Source of the DNA: an uncultured Psychroserpens sp.
GTDB lineage: Bacteria; Bacteroidota; Bacteroidia; Flavobacteriales; Flavobacteriaceae
Assembly: GCF_947500255.1 (NCBI RefSeq)
Contig: NZ_CANMRL010000001.1
Location: 1,240,001 to 1,304,000, forward strand
Direction: 5' to 3'
Length of the DNA stretch: 64,000 nucleotides
The notes beneath the pieces were generated by a model that was not told where the DNA came from, did no database searches, and was given only the letters and a program-made list of their open reading frames with translations. The position numbers and the translations under genes are program-made. Position 1 is the stretch's first letter, and every line of letters begins with the position of its first letter. Shown here piece by piece: positions 32,059-42,583 of this stretch.

Positions 32059-33348
32059 ATGAAATATCATAAAATAGATAGTCAACTCTTTATCAAAAAT
32101 CGAAAAAATTTCATGACAAAAATGAAGCCTAGCAGTCTAGCGGTTTTTAATTCAAATGATATTTACCCTATAAGTGCCGACAGTACAATGCCTTTTGAAC
32201 AGCATCGCGATATTTTCTATTTAAGTGGTGTAGATCAAGAAGAAAGTATTTTAGTGTTATTTCCAGATTGCCCAAAAGAAAAACATCGAGAAATTTTATT
32301 TTTAAAGGAAACTAATGAGCATATAGCAGTTTGGGAAGGTGAAAAACTAACAAAGGATGCTGCTTTTAAAACTAGCGGAATTAAGACTGTGTACTGGCTT
32401 CAAGATATGGAGAAAATCATGTTTGAACTCATGACTCAATGTGATACGGTTTATATTAATACCAATGAGCATTATAGAGCATCTGTTGAAACTGAAACGC
32501 GCGAAGATCGCTACACAAAATGGTTAAAAGATAAATATCCAGCGCATACAGTAGCTAAGAGCAACCCAATATTACAACGCTTACGTTCGGTAAAGGATCA
32601 AATTGAATTAGACCTGTTACAGCAAGCCTGTGATATTACTGAAAAGGGATTTCGTCGTGTGTTGAATTTTGTAAAACCTGATGTTTGGGAGTTCGACATT
32701 GAAGCTGAATTTATGCATGAATTTCTAAGAAATCGCTCAAAAAAATTCGCATATACACCAATTATTGCTTCAGGTAACAACGCTAATGTGTTACATTATA
32801 TTGAAAACAATCAGCAATGTAAAGCAGGTGACTTAATTTTAATGGATGTTGGAGCAGAATACGCAAACTACAGTAGTGACATGTCACGTACAATTCCTGT
32901 TTCTGGTCGTTTTACCGAAAGACAAAAAGCGGTTTATAACGCTGTGAATCGTGTTAAGAACGATGCCACAAAATTATTAGTACCTGGAACGCTTTGGGCT
33001 GAATATCATGTTGAGGTTGGAAAATTAATGACTTCAGAATTACTAGGTCTTGGATTGCTTGATAAAGCTGATGTTCAGAATGAAAATAAAGATTGGCCAG
33101 CATACAAAAAGTATTTTATGCATGGCACATCTCATCATATGGGATTAGACACACATGACTATGGTATTTTAACAGAGCCAATGCAGGCAAATATGGTGTT
33201 TACAGTTGAACCTGGTATCTATATTCCAGATGAAGGCTTTGGTATTCGTTTAGAAGATGATGTTGTGATTCAAGAGGAAGGTGAGCCATTTAACCTTATG
33301 CGAAATATCCCAATTGAAGCTGATGAGATAGAAGAGTTGATGAATTAA
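32059..33348 (+). CDS. pepP: Xaa-Pro aminopeptidase (aminopeptidase P, M24)
   Basis: LILMDVGAEYANYSSDMSRTIPVSG, HGTSHHMGLDTHDYG, VFTVEPGIYIP. Confidence 0.94.
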   Translation: MKYHKIDSQLFIKNRKNFMTKMKPSSLAVFNSNDIYPISADSTMPFEQHRDIFYLSGVDQEESILVLFPDCPKEKHREILFLKETNEHIAVWEGEKLTKDAAFKTSGIKTVYWLQDMEKIMFELMTQCDTVYINTNEHYRASVETETREDRYTKWLKDKYPAHTVAKSNPILQRLRSVKDQIELDLLQQACDITEKGFRRVLNFVKPDVWEFDIEAEFMHEFLRNRSKKFAYTPIIASGNNANVLHYIENNQQCKAGDLILMDVGAEYANYSSDMSRTIPVSGRFTERQKAVYNAVNRVKNDATKLLVPGTLWAEYHVEVGKLMTSELLGLGLLDKADVQNENKDWPAYKKYFMHGTSHHMGLDTHDYGILTEPMQANMVFTVEPGIYIPDEGFGIRLEDDVVIQEEGEPFNLMRNIPIEADEIEELMN

Positions 33349-33368
33349 TACTCTTTAAAACTAAGCGC

Positions 33369-34190
33369 ATGCTATTAGGGCAAAGACATAAATTGAAAAT
33401 TCTTTTAGTAATTTCCTTTGTGATTACTACACTTGCCGCCTGCATTTACTTGGGTCAAGCCTACATGCATTTTAAAGATCAAAGTGTCGAATTTCCCTTA
33501 GGGAGTATGTTAGTGTCTGTTTTTGGAAGTTATTATTGTTTTTTGCTTTTCGTTCCAATGGTTTACTATTTAAAAAACCGATTTGACCTTATAAGAAATT
33601 GGAAATTAGTTTTTATTCATTCTTTTTTTGCGGCAATAATGGCTTCAGCTCATATTATTATAGCATCAGTCTTTAATCACTTTTATATTGCTAATGAAAT
33701 ATCTTTATTTACTAGGATAAAATATGGTTTACAGAATGACTTTTTAATGATATTTATAGGGTATTGTGGTTTATTAGTTACGGCTTATTTTATTGACTAT
33801 TACTTTAAATTTAAACAAAAAGAAACAGAACTAATAGAACTAAAACTATCTAAAACTGAACCTTTAAAACATATTGTTCTCAGAGATAAAGGAAAACTTT
33901 TTAAGGTCGTTCTTGGGGACATCAAATACTTTGAAGCCTTTGATAATTACCTAAAAGTGTTTACCGTTGATAGATTATTTGTTGTAAGAAAAACACTTAA
34001 GGATCTAAATAACGAACTTAAAGATTTTGGGTTTATACGTATTCATAGGTCTTATATTGTGAATGCCTTTCATGTAAAGAGTATAAAAAAACAAAAGTCT
34101 GGAGGAGCAGATATTTTGTTAAAAACAGACGAGACCTTAAAAATGAGTAGATCTTATAAGAAAAATCTTGAGCAGCTCATGAAGTCATAA
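33369..34190 (+). CDS. Membrane-bound LytTR-domain transcriptional regulator
   Basis: Four hydrophobic segments then LytTR domain (IKYFEAFDNYLKVFTVD…FIRIHRSYIVNAFHVKSIKK). Confidence 0.9.
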   Translation: MLLGQRHKLKILLVISFVITTLAACIYLGQAYMHFKDQSVEFPLGSMLVSVFGSYYCFLLFVPMVYYLKNRFDLIRNWKLVFIHSFFAAIMASAHIIIASVFNHFYIANEISLFTRIKYGLQNDFLMIFIGYCGLLVTAYFIDYYFKFKQKETELIELKLSKTEPLKHIVLRDKGKLFKVVLGDIKYFEAFDNYLKVFTVDRLFVVRKTLKDLNNELKDFGFIRIHRSYIVNAFHVKSIKKQKSGGADILLKTDETLKMSRSYKKNLEQLMKS

Positions 34191-34301
34191 CCATATAATT
34201 AACGGCTTACCACAAATTATCTTCCACTTGCCACATAAGTCTTGCATATAGTGCATAAACGAATGAATATTTGCTTTCAATCAATTTAAAACAAAAACTT
34301 C

Positions 34302-35066
34302 ATGAAAGCATTAAATTATACTTTTTCATTACTAGCCTTTTTTATTTTTATGTCATGTTCGAATGCTCAAAAACAAAATATTGAAGGGAAAAAAGTAACT
34401 CCAAATTCACCAGAAATTAAAACAGGCTTTTTTGAGCCTTTTACAGTAGATGGTGTTATCAATATTGAAACTAAAAAGGGAAAGACTTCTGTTTTTAGAT
34501 ATGTCAATAAACAAATGAATTTTGATCTGCTTAATAATCAAAAGGTGATTAAACAGGTTTTATCATATTTTGATAACAAGAAAAAACTAACAGGTGTTCA
34601 CACAACGATTTACGATCCAACTACATTTCATGTTTTATACTGGAGGTATGACAACAAAACTAATAACTCATCTTTTGCCTTTAAAACAGAAGGAACCACA
34701 ATTAAAGGTACGCAAGATGTGAGTTTGCCAGACAATGAATGGAAAGGAATAGATATTGGGACCAAAGTATTTCAGAATGAAAGTCGAGAACTATTTTTTA
34801 GAGCTGTAAATGTTCCAATTGGTACCGTAGTTTCGTTTCCAATAATTGGGATGCAATCTCCATTTCATGGTTGGGTTAATTACAAGTATTCAAAAAACCG
34901 AAAAGTGCTGTTTGAAGGTAAATCTTATGATGCCAAGATATGGGAAGCTGCTAACGATTCAAATACGTTTTATGTTGTAATTGACAAAGCTCCGTATGTC
35001 ATTAAACGGGAAGTTTCCACAGGAAAAGAGAAACATGTGTTTAGTTATAGAGATGTAAAAAACTAA
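34302..35066 (+). CDS. Hypothetical lipoprotein
   Basis: Lipobox FIFMSCSNAQ; no recognised domain. Confidence 0.7.
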   Translation: MKALNYTFSLLAFFIFMSCSNAQKQNIEGKKVTPNSPEIKTGFFEPFTVDGVINIETKKGKTSVFRYVNKQMNFDLLNNQKVIKQVLSYFDNKKKLTGVHTTIYDPTTFHVLYWRYDNKTNNSSFAFKTEGTTIKGTQDVSLPDNEWKGIDIGTKVFQNESRELFFRAVNVPIGTVVSFPIIGMQSPFHGWVNYKYSKNRKVLFEGKSYDAKIWEAANDSNTFYVVIDKAPYVIKREVSTGKEKHVFSYRDVKN

Positions 35067-35067
35067 A

Positions 35068-35589
35068 TTAAGTTTTATTAAAAAAATCACCGTTGCTTAT
35101 AATCTCTATATCTGAAGTAGGCTGTTTTAAAATAATATCTTCTTCAGTTGAAAATTTGAGAGAAAAAAACAAAATAAATATAGCAGCAGAAACATATAAA
35201 AATGCTGAAGATCTTGATTTGATTATCGGTATAATATTACGAGAATTAGATGGTTGAACAATTAACTTATATCCTTTTTTTGGTACAGTTGTGATACTTA
35301 ATTCATCTTCTAGATTATTGTTTTTTATCAGGAAACGTAGCTTGTAAATATTTTTTCTCAATGCGGATTGTCCAACATAGATGTTGTCTTTCCATATTGA
35401 TTTAATTAAGTAATCTTTTGAAACTAATTCATTTTTTGAATACAATAATTCAAGGAAAAGAAGTGTGAGTTGAGGTTCTATTTTTAACGTAACAACCGCC
35501 TTTTTTTTATGAACAATAACAATATTTTCATTCGCTAATAAAGAAACAGATTGAGATATTTCAATTTGACTTTTCATAAAAAGAGACAT
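35068..35589 (-). CDS. ToxR/CadC-like winged-helix regulator with single C-terminal TM segment
   Basis: OmpR-type wHTH (LTLLFLELLYSKNELVSKDYLIKSIWKDNIYVGQSALRKNIYKLRFLI…ITTVPKKGYKL) followed by SAFLYVSAAIFILFFSLKF. Confidence 0.85.
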   Translation of the reverse strand: MSLFMKSQIEISQSVSLLANENIVIVHKKKAVVTLKIEPQLTLLFLELLYSKNELVSKDYLIKSIWKDNIYVGQSALRKNIYKLRFLIKNNNLEDELSITTVPKKGYKLIVQPSNSRNIIPIIKSRSSAFLYVSAAIFILFFSLKFSTEEDIILKQPTSDIEIISNGDFFNKT

Positions 35590-35666
35590 TAATAGGACAT
35601 TAAATATATATTAAAAATAACGATCCCGGATTAAATTTAAAAATTATTAACAAAATCAGAATAAAC

Positions 35667-37151
35667 ATGAAGCATTCATCAATCATCATCTTATTTTTAA
35701 TGGCATTCATCTCAAGTTGTGGACAATCACCTAATAAAGATGTAGCTCTAACAGAATCAAAAAGTAATTTAGAAGTGTTAGATAATTATATGAATAACCT
35801 TGAAAAAGAGGGAGTTTATGGTAGTTTTCTTTTTATGGAAAATGATAAGATTCTTTTCGAAAAAAGTATCGGGTATGCCAACAAAGAAAAAGGAATTAAA
35901 AGCCATAAATTAATTATATATCCTTTTGGTTCTATAGTAAAAGATTATACTAGAACGGTAATTTTATTATTGGCAGCAGAAGAGTTGTTTAATTTAGATG
36001 ACCCTTTGAGTAAGTTCTATTATAACATACCAGAAGATAAAAAGAAAATCACTATCGCGCAACTTTTACAACACCGTTCAGGGTTGCTAGCTTATCACGA
36101 TAATATTCCTGAACTAAGGGAAAAGTATAAAGGAATTCCCGCAGATTTATATCCTGGGACCAAAGAAGAAGCTTTGGGCTATATTTTTAATCAAAAATTG
36201 AAGTTTGAACCAGGAGCAGATGAGTCTTATTCAAACTCAGGTTATACTTTGCTCGCTTATTTAATTGAAGATCTAACCAAGAAAAACTTTGATACAGTCG
36301 TTAGAGAAAAAATATTTGAACCTGCAAATATGACTTCAACAGATTTTTATCAAAGCCCTTTATGGAAACCAGAAGATGTTGCTATTGGTTATGGTCGTTC
36401 AAAATTCGGTAAAGAAAATAGCGCTTATTATTGGCCAAGAAATCCAAATCAACTTATTGGAAATGGAGGTGTTTCGGGAACACTAGACGACCTTTATAAA
36501 GGCGTTAAGTATTTAATGTATTTGGAAAACAATCATAAAAAATTTAATGAATTATCAAAAAAGTATCCCTATATAGAAGGCATGCCTAACGATATTGTTG
36601 GTTCATCTGGAGGAGGAAACTTAGGCAACGTTACCACTTACTTCGGGATTGTATCAAAAAATCAATACTTACTTTTTGCTTCAAATAATGATGATGATGG
36701 TATGGAAGATGTTGCAATGTTACGCGATGTTACCAAAATGGCATTTAATTTTGATATCGCTTCACTTGCTCCAGAAGAATTTCAAAACAACAATGGAGAA
36801 GAAGAAAGTGAGCTTAGTCAATTAAGTACAGATACGAAGAAATCAAAATGGGGACTTCCAGATAAGCTTAAGTATAAACGACTTGGAGCATTATTAGATG
36901 TAGTTTCAAACCAAATGAGTATAGACACATTTACAAATGAGAACTGCACAAGTAAATTTTCTAAAAAGGTTAAAAAATTTCACCAGTCTTGGCCTAAATC
37001 AAATTCGATAACATTTGACGAAGTGGCATCTTATGGCGCAGAGATGGACCTTATTGTCAAAGATACTCTAACAGACAAAACATTCAAGTTTGAAGTTAAA
37101 ATGGATAGAGGAGAGAATTACAAGTTTAAATCTATTAAACTCAAAAAATAA
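35667..37151 (+). CDS. Serine beta-lactamase-like hydrolase (class C / PBP4*-like)
   Basis: Lipobox ISSCG; SIVK (SxxK), YSNSGYTLL (YxN), GNGGVSGTLDDL. Confidence 0.9.
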   Translation: MKHSSIIILFLMAFISSCGQSPNKDVALTESKSNLEVLDNYMNNLEKEGVYGSFLFMENDKILFEKSIGYANKEKGIKSHKLIIYPFGSIVKDYTRTVILLLAAEELFNLDDPLSKFYYNIPEDKKKITIAQLLQHRSGLLAYHDNIPELREKYKGIPADLYPGTKEEALGYIFNQKLKFEPGADESYSNSGYTLLAYLIEDLTKKNFDTVVREKIFEPANMTSTDFYQSPLWKPEDVAIGYGRSKFGKENSAYYWPRNPNQLIGNGGVSGTLDDLYKGVKYLMYLENNHKKFNELSKKYPYIEGMPNDIVGSSGGGNLGNVTTYFGIVSKNQYLLFASNNDDDGMEDVAMLRDVTKMAFNFDIASLAPEEFQNNNGEEESELSQLSTDTKKSKWGLPDKLKYKRLGALLDVVSNQMSIDTFTNENCTSKFSKKVKKFHQSWPKSNSITFDEVASYGAEMDLIVKDTLTDKTFKFEVKMDRGENYKFKSIKLKK

Positions 37152-38224
37152 TGAGAAGTTTAGTCTATATCTTTGGTCTTTTTCTTTTTGTAGGACCGAC
37201 TAGTCTAGAATCTCAAAATGATACGGTCAAATTTGAAAAGGAAGACATTAGTATCACTACACGTGATGTAATTAATATACCTGGAGTTATAGAGTATTCT
37301 AACACAGGCAAACGAATGCCTGCAGCCATCCTAATATGGGGAAATGGGCCGCACACGAGAGATCAAGAAATTTCTAAGACACCAATGTTTAAGATTATCT
37401 CAAGACACTTGGTTAATAATGGATTTTTGGTAATGAGATTAGATAAAAGAGGATTTGGCAAGTCGTCTATAAAATATCCGTCCTCAGAAAGTGACTATAC
37501 TACAATAGACCTTAAAAACGACATTGACACAGCAATTAATTATTTGAAGACACATTCAAAGGTAGATACTACAAAAATTGGTCTTATTGGTCATAGTGAA
37601 GGGGCTATGATTGCTGCAATGTTGGCCTCTGAAAACAAGGTGAGTTGGAACATACAAATTGGTTCAGTAGGAGTGTCAGGTAAAGAGATTTTTTTAGAAC
37701 AACGTAAACGAAATATAAAAAGACTAGGAATTCCAGATTCGACCTCGGTTAATATAAGGAGGGTTTTTAGTAAATATGTTGATTTTATTAATAGAGACTT
37801 TACCAACGATTCTATCCATTACACGCTCGGGAAAGAGTTTTTAATAGCGCATGGTTTAAATGAAGATGATAAGCGCATAACACCAAAGTTTATTGATCAA
37901 CTTCTTGATGGTTTTAGAAATAAATGGAACCAATGTTTTTTTGGATTAGATATGAGAACATATCAATCTAAAATTACCATTCCCACACTAATTGTTATGG
38001 GTAATTACGATAATCAAGTAACTGTAGATCAAAATATAACTGAACTCAATAAATCTCTTTTAGAAGCGGGAAATAAAAACTATGAGATAAAAATATTGTC
38101 AGAATCAGATCACTTTTTTTTAACTCATAACAATCTAAGGTTAGAAAAACACAAACCAGAAGAAATGAATGTATCAAGATCATTATTGAATAGCATCATA
38201 GATTTTTTAAAAAACTATAATTAA
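37151..38224 (+). CDS. Secreted alpha/beta hydrolase
   Basis: Signal peptide; GHSEGAMIAAMLAS nucleophile elbow; MGNYDNQVT and SDHFF acid/His region. Confidence 0.88.
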   Translation: MRSLVYIFGLFLFVGPTSLESQNDTVKFEKEDISITTRDVINIPGVIEYSNTGKRMPAAILIWGNGPHTRDQEISKTPMFKIISRHLVNNGFLVMRLDKRGFGKSSIKYPSSESDYTTIDLKNDIDTAINYLKTHSKVDTTKIGLIGHSEGAMIAAMLASENKVSWNIQIGSVGVSGKEIFLEQRKRNIKRLGIPDSTSVNIRRVFSKYVDFINRDFTNDSIHYTLGKEFLIAHGLNEDDKRITPKFIDQLLDGFRNKWNQCFFGLDMRTYQSKITIPTLIVMGNYDNQVTVDQNITELNKSLLEAGNKNYEIKILSESDHFFLTHNNLRLEKHKPEEMNVSRSLLNSIIDFLKNYN

Positions 38225-38230
38225 ACACAC

Positions 38231-39700
38231 ATGAGACGATTGTTATTTATTTTATTTTTTTCTTCTTTTTTTATATCAAGTTGTGGACAAGAGGGCAAAC
38301 TTCCTGAGGTAGTTGATGAAAATGACTTGAGTGTTTTGGATAATTATACTAATGGTTTGGAAGAAAAAGGGGTTTACGGAAGTTTCTTGGTCATTGAAAA
38401 AGATGTTGTGATATTTAAAAAAAGTATTGGTTTTTCTAATCGAGAAAAAAAAATAAAGGCAAATAAAAACACTATTTATCCATATGGATCTATAACAAAA
38501 GAATATACATCATCTGTAGTATTTCAATTGATAATAGAAGGGATGTTAAAAGAAACAGATGATTTAACTCAATTCTTTGATGGAGTCCCGAACGATAAAA
38601 AAGCAATCACAATTGAACAGCTATTAAAACATCGTTCGGGATTACAAGAATATCATGGTTTAAATTTAAGTCATAAATATCCGAACGTTCCTGCCGATTT
38701 TTACCCTATAACAAAAAACGAAGCCTTAGAAAGAATTCTGTCTCAGGAGCTAAAATATGCACCAGGCACAAGTCAAAACTATTCAAATTCCGGGTATACA
38801 TTATTAGCATTGATAATAGAAAAAGTGACAGGAAAATCTTTTGAAGACGTAATTTATAATTACATTCTAAAGCCTGCCAATACAAAACATGCAGACTTTT
38901 ACAGTAGTAAGTTATGGCAACCAAATCAAGTTGCGATAGGTTATAATAATCAAACGTATGGAAAGGAAAACAGTGCTTATTATTGGCCTAGACATACCAT
39001 GACTTTGTTTGGTAATGGGGGTATGGCTGGATCTCTTGATGATCTTTATAAAGGATTGCGGTTTATGATTAAAAACCAAGATGAGAACCCTAAGTATGGA
39101 GATTTGGGCAAAGCGTTTAGATATCTAGAAAACTTACCTGAAGAATACATTACTTATGGAGGTGGTGATGATTTAGGTTTTGTCGCTGGTTATTTCGTCG
39201 AAAAACAGAAGGACAAATATTTTTTGTTTGCCTTAAATAATAATATAGGAAATGATCACGCCTACATGTTACGAGATATAATACTATTACTTTTTGACTT
39301 TGATTTTGCGCGTTTAGCTCCTGATGTTTTTGAACAGTCAGATTATTCTAAAAATGAAGAAAAGCATTTGACTAAAAATGACTTAAAAGGAAAATGGAGA
39401 CTGCCTCCTGGGAATAAATTTCAAAAAATAGGAATATTTCTTGACCTTATCACCGCAAGCGATAGGAGTACTATTGATGCTTTTATAAATGAACAATGTA
39501 CACATAGTTATGCGAAAAAAGCAAAAAAAGCTAGTATAGAATGGCCGTTTTCAGAAACTATAGATTATAAAAAAATATCCGAGTCTGGAAATACTTTAAA
39601 GGTGACATTAGTAGATTCCAAAACGAAAAAAAGCTACCTATTTATATTTAGCTTTGATAAAAACAATAGATTCAAAAATATAAAGTTCAACGAATTTTAA
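38231..39700 (+). CDS. Serine beta-lactamase-like hydrolase, paralog of 35667..37151
   Basis: Lipobox ISSCG; SITK, YSNSGYTLLALI, FGNGGMAGSLDDLYKG. Confidence 0.9.
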   Translation: MRRLLFILFFSSFFISSCGQEGKLPEVVDENDLSVLDNYTNGLEEKGVYGSFLVIEKDVVIFKKSIGFSNREKKIKANKNTIYPYGSITKEYTSSVVFQLIIEGMLKETDDLTQFFDGVPNDKKAITIEQLLKHRSGLQEYHGLNLSHKYPNVPADFYPITKNEALERILSQELKYAPGTSQNYSNSGYTLLALIIEKVTGKSFEDVIYNYILKPANTKHADFYSSKLWQPNQVAIGYNNQTYGKENSAYYWPRHTMTLFGNGGMAGSLDDLYKGLRFMIKNQDENPKYGDLGKAFRYLENLPEEYITYGGGDDLGFVAGYFVEKQKDKYFLFALNNNIGNDHAYMLRDIILLLFDFDFARLAPDVFEQSDYSKNEEKHLTKNDLKGKWRLPPGNKFQKIGIFLDLITASDRSTIDAFINEQCTHSYAKKAKKASIEWPFSETIDYKKISESGNTLKVTLVDSKTKKSYLFIFSFDKNNRFKNIKFNEF

Positions 39701-39731
39701 ATTATTCTTCAATTCGCATAACACAAACATC

Positions 39732-41048
39732 TTATGCTACTTTATTAGTTTTAGATAACAAGCCTATACCCAAACAAGTTAGCAATGCTGGTAATACCCA
39801 TCCTAATTGATGTTTGGCGAAGGGAATATAATGGATAAGTGTATTCAAAACCTCCGAAGGGCTTTCATAACCAATAGCATTACGTATAAAGCCAATAGCA
39901 TCTGGAATGGTAAACAAGAACGTGACTATCACAACAGCTCTAAACATTAAAGGCGACGACCATCGTTTTGAAAGTACATTGAGAATAATAAGAACAATGG
40001 TAATAGGATAAACAAAAAGTAATATTGGAAAAGCAATAACAATAATAGAATGAAAATCTAATTGACCAACAACGACACCAAGGACACAGCTAATAATTGA
40101 TGTTGCAACATAAACAGAATGTGAATTACCAAGTAAACCTTTAAAATAATCTGCAGTTCCAGCGATAATACCTACAGCCGTTGTAAAACATGCCAATGAA
40201 ATTAAAATACTTAAAACGGTATTCCCAAAGGTGCCTAAAGCAGCAATACTAACTCCTCTTAGCAAATTAGCACGTTGCATATCATCACTTAATTCTGAAT
40301 TTATAATGATCTCAGAACCATAATAGGCACCAACCGAAATTAAACCAGCATAAATCATAAACAATCCAAATCCAGCAACCCAACCTGATTTAGCAATGAG
40401 TGCTCTCTTCTCTTCAAAACTCCCTTTGTGTCTAATATTGACAGATATAATTATAAAAGCTCCAACAACTGCGGCACCAATAGCATCAAAAGTTTGATAG
40501 CCTTCTAAGACTCCAGTTACAATGGGTGTTTTAAATTGAGACACGTTTGTAGTCATTTCCGAAGAGAACAAACCTATACCAATTACCATTAATAGCATTA
40601 TTACAATTAACGGTGTTAAAAATTTACCTACAAAACTTAATATTTTTGATCTATTAAGAACAAAAACTAAGACGAGTGTAAAATAGATAGAGCTTGTTAA
40701 TAATGGACTCGTACCAAATGCTGGATGAATAGCAATTTCATGTGTAGCTGAAGCTGTTCTTGGCGACGGAATTGCAATAGATATAACATAAATAAGTATG
40801 CAATAAATGAGGCTAAATTGTGGTGAGACCTTCTTCCCAAAGTCGTATAGTGTTCCTTGTAGCTTTGCATGAGCCAAAATTCCAATTATAGGAATTACGA
40901 CACCTGTGATCATAAAACCAATAGCGACCCAAATCCAATTTTCTCCTGCGTTATAACCTAAAAGAGGAGGAAGCAATAAGTTAGCAGCACCAAAAAAAAG
41001 TGAGAATAAGGCAAAGCTTGTGATGAAAAGTTCTTTTCTAGAATTCAA
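39732..41048 (-). CDS. brnQ: Branched-chain amino acid transport system carrier
   Basis: FALFSLFFGAANLLLPPLLGYNAGENW; about 12 TM. ORF track starts at a TTG (41099); a TTG at 41048 (NSRKELFITSFALF) is more plausible because a -7 element lies at 41073-41080. Confidence 0.88.
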   Translation of the reverse strand: MNSRKELFITSFALFSLFFGAANLLLPPLLGYNAGENWIWVAIGFMITGVVIPIIGILAHAKLQGTLYDFGKKVSPQFSLIYCILIYVISIAIPSPRTASATHEIAIHPAFGTSPLLTSSIYFTLVLVFVLNRSKILSFVGKFLTPLIVIMLLMVIGIGLFSSEMTTNVSQFKTPIVTGVLEGYQTFDAIGAAVVGAFIIISVNIRHKGSFEEKRALIAKSGWVAGFGLFMIYAGLISVGAYYGSEIIINSELSDDMQRANLLRGVSIAALGTFGNTVLSILISLACFTTAVGIIAGTADYFKGLLGNSHSVYVATSIISCVLGVVVGQLDFHSIIVIAFPILLFVYPITIVLIILNVLSKRWSSPLMFRAVVIVTFLFTIPDAIGFIRNAIGYESPSEVLNTLIHYIPFAKHQLGWVLPALLTCLGIGLLSKTNKVA

Positions 41049-41966: not shown

Positions 41967-42236
41967 ATGAAAAAAACAACACCTACTAAGACTTCAAGTC
42001 CGTTAAAAATCTACTGTGACATATTTGGTCATAACTATGAGATGACAAAAAAAGTCACCTCTCATGTTAAAGAATATACTTGCAAATGCTGTAAACGTCA
42101 ATTGACGACCAATGGCAATGGAAAGTTAACAGAACTTACACCTAAGTACAAAGAAATAAATGCTATTCTAGAGCAGATATATACACGCAGAATGATGCGT
42201 TTAAAGAAGAAAACACTCAGTTCATCGATATATTAG
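41967..42236 (+). CDS. Small Cys/His protein, putative zinc ribbon (copy 1)
   Basis: IYCDIFGHNYEM…HVKEYTCKCCKRQLTTNGNGKLTELTPKYKEINAILEQIYTRRMMRLKKK. Confidence 0.75.
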   Translation: MKKTTPTKTSSPLKIYCDIFGHNYEMTKKVTSHVKEYTCKCCKRQLTTNGNGKLTELTPKYKEINAILEQIYTRRMMRLKKKTLSSSIY

Positions 42237-42253
42237 TGTAAAATCTCACGTTA

Positions 42254-42583
42254 TTGTGTGGTTTTCATATATTTAGTAATCCTCTAAAATTAATAACTAA
42301 ATATCACAATAAGGTGAAAAGTCTCTACTGCTCGTTATTTGGACATCAATACGAAGTCTCTAAAAACATCACGTATCACGTTAAAGAATATAAATGTTGC
42401 CATTGCAATACCCAAGTCACTACAAATGGGAAAGGTGGTCTAACATTACTAACGCCTAAGTATAAAGAAATCAATTCGGTGTTAGAACGTATTCATAACA
42501 GAAGAATTTCTCGAATAAAACAGAAAGCGTCCAATCCAATTGAAGAGAATTCAGTTTTGGATTTTACGCCTCATTTTTCATAG
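42254..42583 (+). CDS. Small Cys/His protein, putative zinc ribbon (copy 2); start codon uncertain (TTG 42254 or GTG 42314)
   Basis: LYCSLFGHQYEV…HVKEYKCCHCNTQVTTNGKGGLTLLTPKYKEINSVLERIHNRRISRIKQK; close paralog of copy 1. Confidence 0.7.
   Translation: MCGFHIFSNPLKLITKYHNKVKSLYCSLFGHQYEVSKNITYHVKEYKCCHCNTQVTTNGKGGLTLLTPKYKEINSVLERIHNRRISRIKQKASNPIEENSVLDFTPHFS

Follow-up and report, generated by a model that had tools for sequence, protein, structure and literature searches.

A short ToxR/CadC-like membrane regulator divergent from exported hydrolase genes in a Psychroserpens accessory insertion and in other Bacteroidota

Analysis of a 64,000-nucleotide stretch of the genome of an uncultured Psychroserpens sp. 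(the window) identified a gene for a small ToxR/CadC-like membrane regulator that is divergent from a tight operon encoding two lipoproteins of the beta-lactamase/S12 fold (S12-1 and S12-2) and, between them, an exported alpha/beta hydrolase (ABH). The pairing of such a regulator with one divergent exported hydrolase recurs in three other genera, with direct repeats at fixed spacing in the DNA between the two genes, and in the window's strain the genes lie on a small accessory insertion. We propose, with a probability of roughly 0.6, that these genes constitute a local, self-contained one-component circuit: the regulator, anchored in the membrane, would most likely act as an activator of the exported hydrolase gene or genes next to it.

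Results

Gene layout and relation to described systems

An ORF check and domain search of the window established the four ORFs of the cassette as real, with the coordinates that an earlier note had assigned to them (Table 1); the ORFs and their domain matches also bear out the note's description of a winged-helix regulator with one transmembrane segment (TM) and a tiny outer tail, divergent from exported hydrolases. The ATG of the ABH gene and the TAA of S12-1 have one base in common (37151), an overlap that had been recognised from the start, and the gap between ABH and S12-2 is 6 bp, correcting the 7 bp first reported. The cassette had not been recognised as a described system, and it matched no named system in the present analysis: a literature search found no description of a regulator and divergent hydrolase in this arrangement, and PADLOC models gave no match to the cassette proteins at E <= 0.01. 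A role in anti-phage defence was considered and set aside, given the lack of a PADLOC match and the location of an AbiH-like gene (see below) in the insertion of a relative, not in that of the window.

Table 1. Positions of the cassette genes, candidate regulatory elements and surrounding insertion within the window
Feature	Coordinates	Strand	Remarks
Accessory insertion holding the cassette, a LytTR regulator gene and a lipoprotein gene	33349..39731	.	6.4 kb; flanks adjacent in 15/20 same-genus genomes
Regulator, ToxR/CadC-type winged helix (Trans_reg_C), one TM, 26-aa outer tail	35068..35577	-	longer ORF reading to 35589
Candidate operator, 11-bp-spaced direct repeats GAGACAT-N4-AGGACAT	35583..35600	+	7-mers 35583-35589 and 35594-35600; 12/14 vs AGGACAT-N4-AGGACAT
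Candidate -7 promoter box TAAATTTA (TAnnTTTR) of the hydrolase operon	35632..35639	+	spacing from repeats; flavobacterial consensus
S12-1, lipoprotein, beta-lactamase/S12 fold and ~100-aa C-terminal domain	35667..37151	+	SxxK at S89, YSN at 188-190
ABH, exported alpha/beta hydrolase	37151..38224	+	GHSEG (S149), D287, H321
S12-2, S12 lipoprotein paralogous to S12-1	38231..39700	+	44-45% identity to S12-1; third motif YGG

The regulator

The regulator matches Trans_reg_C above cut-off (Pfam, E 6e-9), indicating a winged-helix DNA-binding domain of the OmpR/PhoB type, and the only solved structures with sequence similarity to it are those of the CadC and ToxR DNA-binding domains. The second Met (35577), where its relatives also begin, is the probable translation start and gives a protein of 169 aa; counted from this residue, a single TM is predicted at residues 125-143, a hydropathy peak that is kept in relatives. 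A folded periplasmic sensor domain of the kind present in CadC and ToxR is absent from the outer tail, which comprises 26 aa (19-47 aa in close relatives). This shortness argues against a folded ligand-binding domain, and is still compatible with signalling through the membrane or through a partner. We therefore assign the protein to the wider class of transmembrane regulators rather than treating it as an orthologue of CadC or ToxR. Its own genome contains six Trans_reg_C matches; the open frames of the other five are longer (229-330 aa).

The hydrolases

Both S12-1 and S12-2 match the Beta-lactamase/S12 family (Pfam, E 4e-41 and 7e-41), and they are 44% identical over 477 aa, nearly their full length and inclusive of the ~100-aa C-terminal domain, in keeping with the previous description of two paralogous lipoproteins that share an extra C-terminal domain. 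S12-2 is about equally distant (42-45%) from S12-1 and from the S12 proteins of Leptobacterium and a member of the Saprospiraceae described below, and is therefore not a recent duplicate of S12-1. The SxxK and YxN motifs are kept in both proteins (S89 and K92, Y188 and N190 in S12-1). The third motif reads S-S-G or S-A-G in S12-1 and its orthologues, Y-G-G in S12-2, and H-N-G or H-G-G in other S12 relatives; the H/K-x-G of DD-peptidases and class C beta-lactamases is absent from S12-1, its orthologues and S12-2, and because of this deviation neither DD-peptidase nor beta-lactamase activity should be assumed for the two proteins. Both score below the curated cut-offs of named families (best NCBIfam scores of 70.8 bits against a cut-off of 266, and 79.5 bits against 443). 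An AlphaFold2 model of S12-1 (pLDDT 77) matches S12 enzymes, including D-peptidases, DltE, FmtA and the R61 DD-peptidase, and the substrates are probably D-amino-acid peptides, amides or esters. The C-terminal domain has no Pfam match above cut-off; an NTF2/cystatin-like shape, suggested by its helix-helix-helix-four-strand order, was not adopted, the model being weak (pLDDT 66) and the fold search yielding no significant match.

ABH matches alpha/beta hydrolase families (Pfam, E about 5e-11), and its GxSxG nucleophile, Asp and His are conserved in both members of the subfamily. The nearest named model is the esterase EstD, far under its cut-off (88.6 vs 600 bits), and ABH is probably an esterase. 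The packing of the operon suggests that the three enzymes, found as a trio in one genome only, may act together.

An accessory insertion at a variable site

The cassette is part of a strain-specific accessory insertion at a variable site of the genus. It lies between an aminopeptidase P gene ending at 33348 and brnQ, which begins at 39732. Twenty other genomes of the genus have a brnQ match: in 15 the two flanking genes are side by side, about 9-136 bp apart, three carry other cargo, and the remaining two have no aminopeptidase P gene in the stretch examined. In the closest relative (G004), whose flanking proteins are 93-99% identical, the site is occupied by the AbiH-like gene (L143:12062-13282; Pfam E 7e-27), and two further genomes of the genus have other ORFs there. 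G+C content is lower in the insertion (30.7%) than in the remainder of the window (34.3%), and no end repeats, integrase, IS element or mobility gene were seen at the insertion.

A second regulator/lipoprotein pair occupies the same insertion beside the cassette (33369-35066), in which the gene for a membrane LytTR regulator (273 aa) precedes one for a lipoprotein (254 aa) with no assigned family. Elsewhere in the window, at 41967-42583, two adjoining small paralogous ORFs (89 and 109 aa; ~59% identical in their common part) carry CxxC motifs and are well conserved in the genus; the first of these has no Pfam match.

Recurrence of a two-gene unit

Homologues of the regulator are divergent from an S12 gene in Leptobacterium flavescens (G160; L084/L090) and in a Saprospiraceae metagenome-assembled genome (MAG; L091), the S12 proteins being 69% and 59% identical, respectively. 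In another genus of the family (G240), a regulator homologue is divergent from an ABH gene (47% identical) that no S12 gene adjoins. A search of 149 relatives, 24 of which belong to the same genus, returned no S12-1 orthologue (best match 36%), and the whole three-hydrolase cassette was found neither in 149 relatives (S12-1 query), 400 genomes of the family (ABH query), 356 genomes of the phylum (S12 subfamily profile) or plasmids (S12-2 query), nor in a non-exhaustive scan of genome contigs with two short peptide patterns. Because pairs, and never the full trio, were found in Leptobacterium, the Saprospiraceae MAG and G240, a regulator with one hydrolase is the recurring unit, and the trio in the window looks like an expansion of it. 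The earlier note had proposed co-conservation outside the strain as a test of the cassette; such conservation was found for the regulator with one hydrolase (S12 in two genera, ABH in one), and the three-hydrolase arrangement was found in the window only.

A candidate operator and promoter

Direct repeats resembling AGGACAT, spaced by 11 bp, occur in all four divergent intergenic regions (window, Leptobacterium, G240 and the Saprospiraceae MAG). The repeat was first noted from the former three; the Saprospiraceae locus, fetched later as an out-of-sample check, carries an exact AGGACAT-N4-AGGACAT (14/14 matches; 0/5000 shuffles). The copy in the window is imperfect (12/14; shuffle p 0.0016), and that in G240 has 11/14 matches (p 0.0046). 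Scored without reference to the motif, tandem repetition in the window alone does not reach significance (p 0.71); support for an operator is the shared motif and spacing, and not the window's repeat score by itself. The intergenic DNA of the window can be aligned with that of Leptobacterium, so that their repeats are not independent. Similarity between the Saprospiraceae DNA and the window starts only within the S12 gene, and the hydrolase of G240 is a different one.

In each of the four loci, the last repeat starts 37-38 bp upstream of a TAnnTTTR box; the spacing is unchanged in G240, which has three repeats. The flavobacterial -7 consensus is TAnnTTTG, with the box at -12 to -5 (PMC9723704). 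Relative to a start site predicted from the box, the 7-mers of the window occupy approximately -61 to -55 and -50 to -44, near the position of the direct repeats bound by ToxR at ompU (-51 to -37; PMC7496328), a resemblance that favours activation without proving it. In genome pattern searches the exact motif occurred once in Leptobacterium, at the regulator/S12 intergenic site, and the count at two mismatches in the window's genome was at chance level. The regulon is therefore probably local, and a wider one in the window's genome, where matches were no more frequent than chance, was rejected.

Short winged-helix membrane regulators more broadly

Nine short regulators of this type (148-185 aa) were compared, comprising the four close loci and a further five, more distant, that were retrieved by their similarity to the window regulator. 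Eight are divergent from an exported hydrolase and the ninth faces a 132-aa membrane protein. The partner is an S12 protein in the window, Leptobacterium and the Saprospiraceae MAG, an ABH in G240 and G165, and an aspartyl-protease-like lipoprotein in G004, G083 and a second G240 locus (with a Pfam run for this last locus only). The groups share ancestry, which reduces the tally to about 4/5 independent pairings, a raw count rather than an enrichment. Intergenic regions of the aspartyl-protease group contain GTTAAC-type repeats with 10-bp spacing, clear in two of the three.

Short regulators divergent from aspartyl-protease-like lipoproteins are located at L087:5115-6965, L088:6640-8473 and L110:5554-7344. 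Four S12 hydrolase genes are clustered within about 17 kb (L062:2050-19280) in G083, a member of the Flavobacteriaceae.

Discussion

In the circuit we propose, the regulator would bind the tandem 11-bp-spaced repeats of the divergent intergenic region, which lie some 44-61 bp ahead of the predicted operon start site, and a signal from the envelope reaching the regulator would most likely activate transcription of the exported hydrolases, with two S12 lipoproteins and one exported alpha/beta hydrolase as output. The conserved core is the regulator and one hydrolase, expanded to three hydrolases in the window's strain on the small accessory insertion.

The position of the repeats bears on whether the regulator might instead repress the operon and itself, the hydrolases being off by default until an envelope signal or proteolysis of the regulator releases them. 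The repeats directly adjoin the start codon of the regulator, making autoregulation likely, and ToxR is reported to be able to activate or repress (PMC6733452); they are nevertheless upstream of the hydrolase -7 box rather than over it, at a fixed distance typical of activators, and we regard repression as unlikely. We give similarly limited credence to a cocomponent system, in which a regulator nearly devoid of a sensory part would receive its signal, at the TM and tail, from the hydrolase (perhaps from its extra C-terminal domain) or from the reaction product, in the manner of ToxS or VtrC. Partner proteins of other transmembrane regulators work in this way (PMC10269533), and both the short tails of the close relatives and the strict pairing with one exported protein would fit, but the partner is exchangeable (S12 or ABH), no common domain that might touch the regulator was found, and the C-terminal domain is absent from ABH. 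The earlier note had suggested an export or processing unit whose regulator perhaps senses the enzyme product, a proposal that is borne out here for the regulator and hydrolase pairing and is otherwise conjectural.

Chance assembly of unrelated accessory genes under no common regulation would be in keeping with an insertion site that takes unrelated cargo and with a genome containing eight S12 matches at E <= 1e-20. It is made very improbable by the same divergent pairing, repeats and spacing in three other genera with different surroundings. A generalization that we consider unlikely is that, throughout Bacteroidota, short winged-helix membrane regulators make up a recurring class of two-gene units, each regulator having its own divergent exported hydrolase (S12, alpha/beta hydrolase or aspartyl protease), and that the hydrolase or its product might supply the sensing that the regulator lacks.

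The regulator, its layout and the S12 proteins have parallels among known systems. With E. coli CadC and V. cholerae ToxR the regulator shares an N-terminal winged helix, a single TM and a DNA-binding domain matching their structures, and with ToxR at ompU it shares a direct-repeat operator, here a candidate, upstream of the target promoter; it differs in having a 26-aa tail where CadC and ToxR have a folded periplasmic sensor domain, in its target, an adjoining exported hydrolase gene, and in its host, a member of the Bacteroidota. The layout also resembles that of ampR-ampC, in which a regulator gene is divergent from the gene for a class-C-fold enzyme; the likeness is one of layout only. 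AmpR is a soluble LysR-type regulator, that of the window a membrane regulator. The S12 proteins share the fold, SxxK and YxN with D-peptidases, DltE, FmtA, DD-peptidases and class C beta-lactamases, and differ from them in a third motif of SxG or YGG in place of H/K-x-G and in the extra ~100-aa C-terminal domain.

Transmembrane regulators are a known and widespread class, about 57% of which have no further recognised domain (PMC10269533). The regulator resembles these in combining a winged helix and TM with no other recognisable domain; for the present one, the pairing with a target, the candidate operator and the recurrence across genera are described as well. Most known transmembrane regulators lack a sensor domain (PMC10269533). 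For the question of how signals reach such proteins, the unit described here offers a minimal natural example: a regulator of 169 aa with a candidate operator and a single adjoining target, conserved across two families. The same type of regulator and operator occurs with either of two targets, S12 or ABH, and the unit suggests a rule by which orphan exported hydrolases of Bacteroidota might be paired with regulators.
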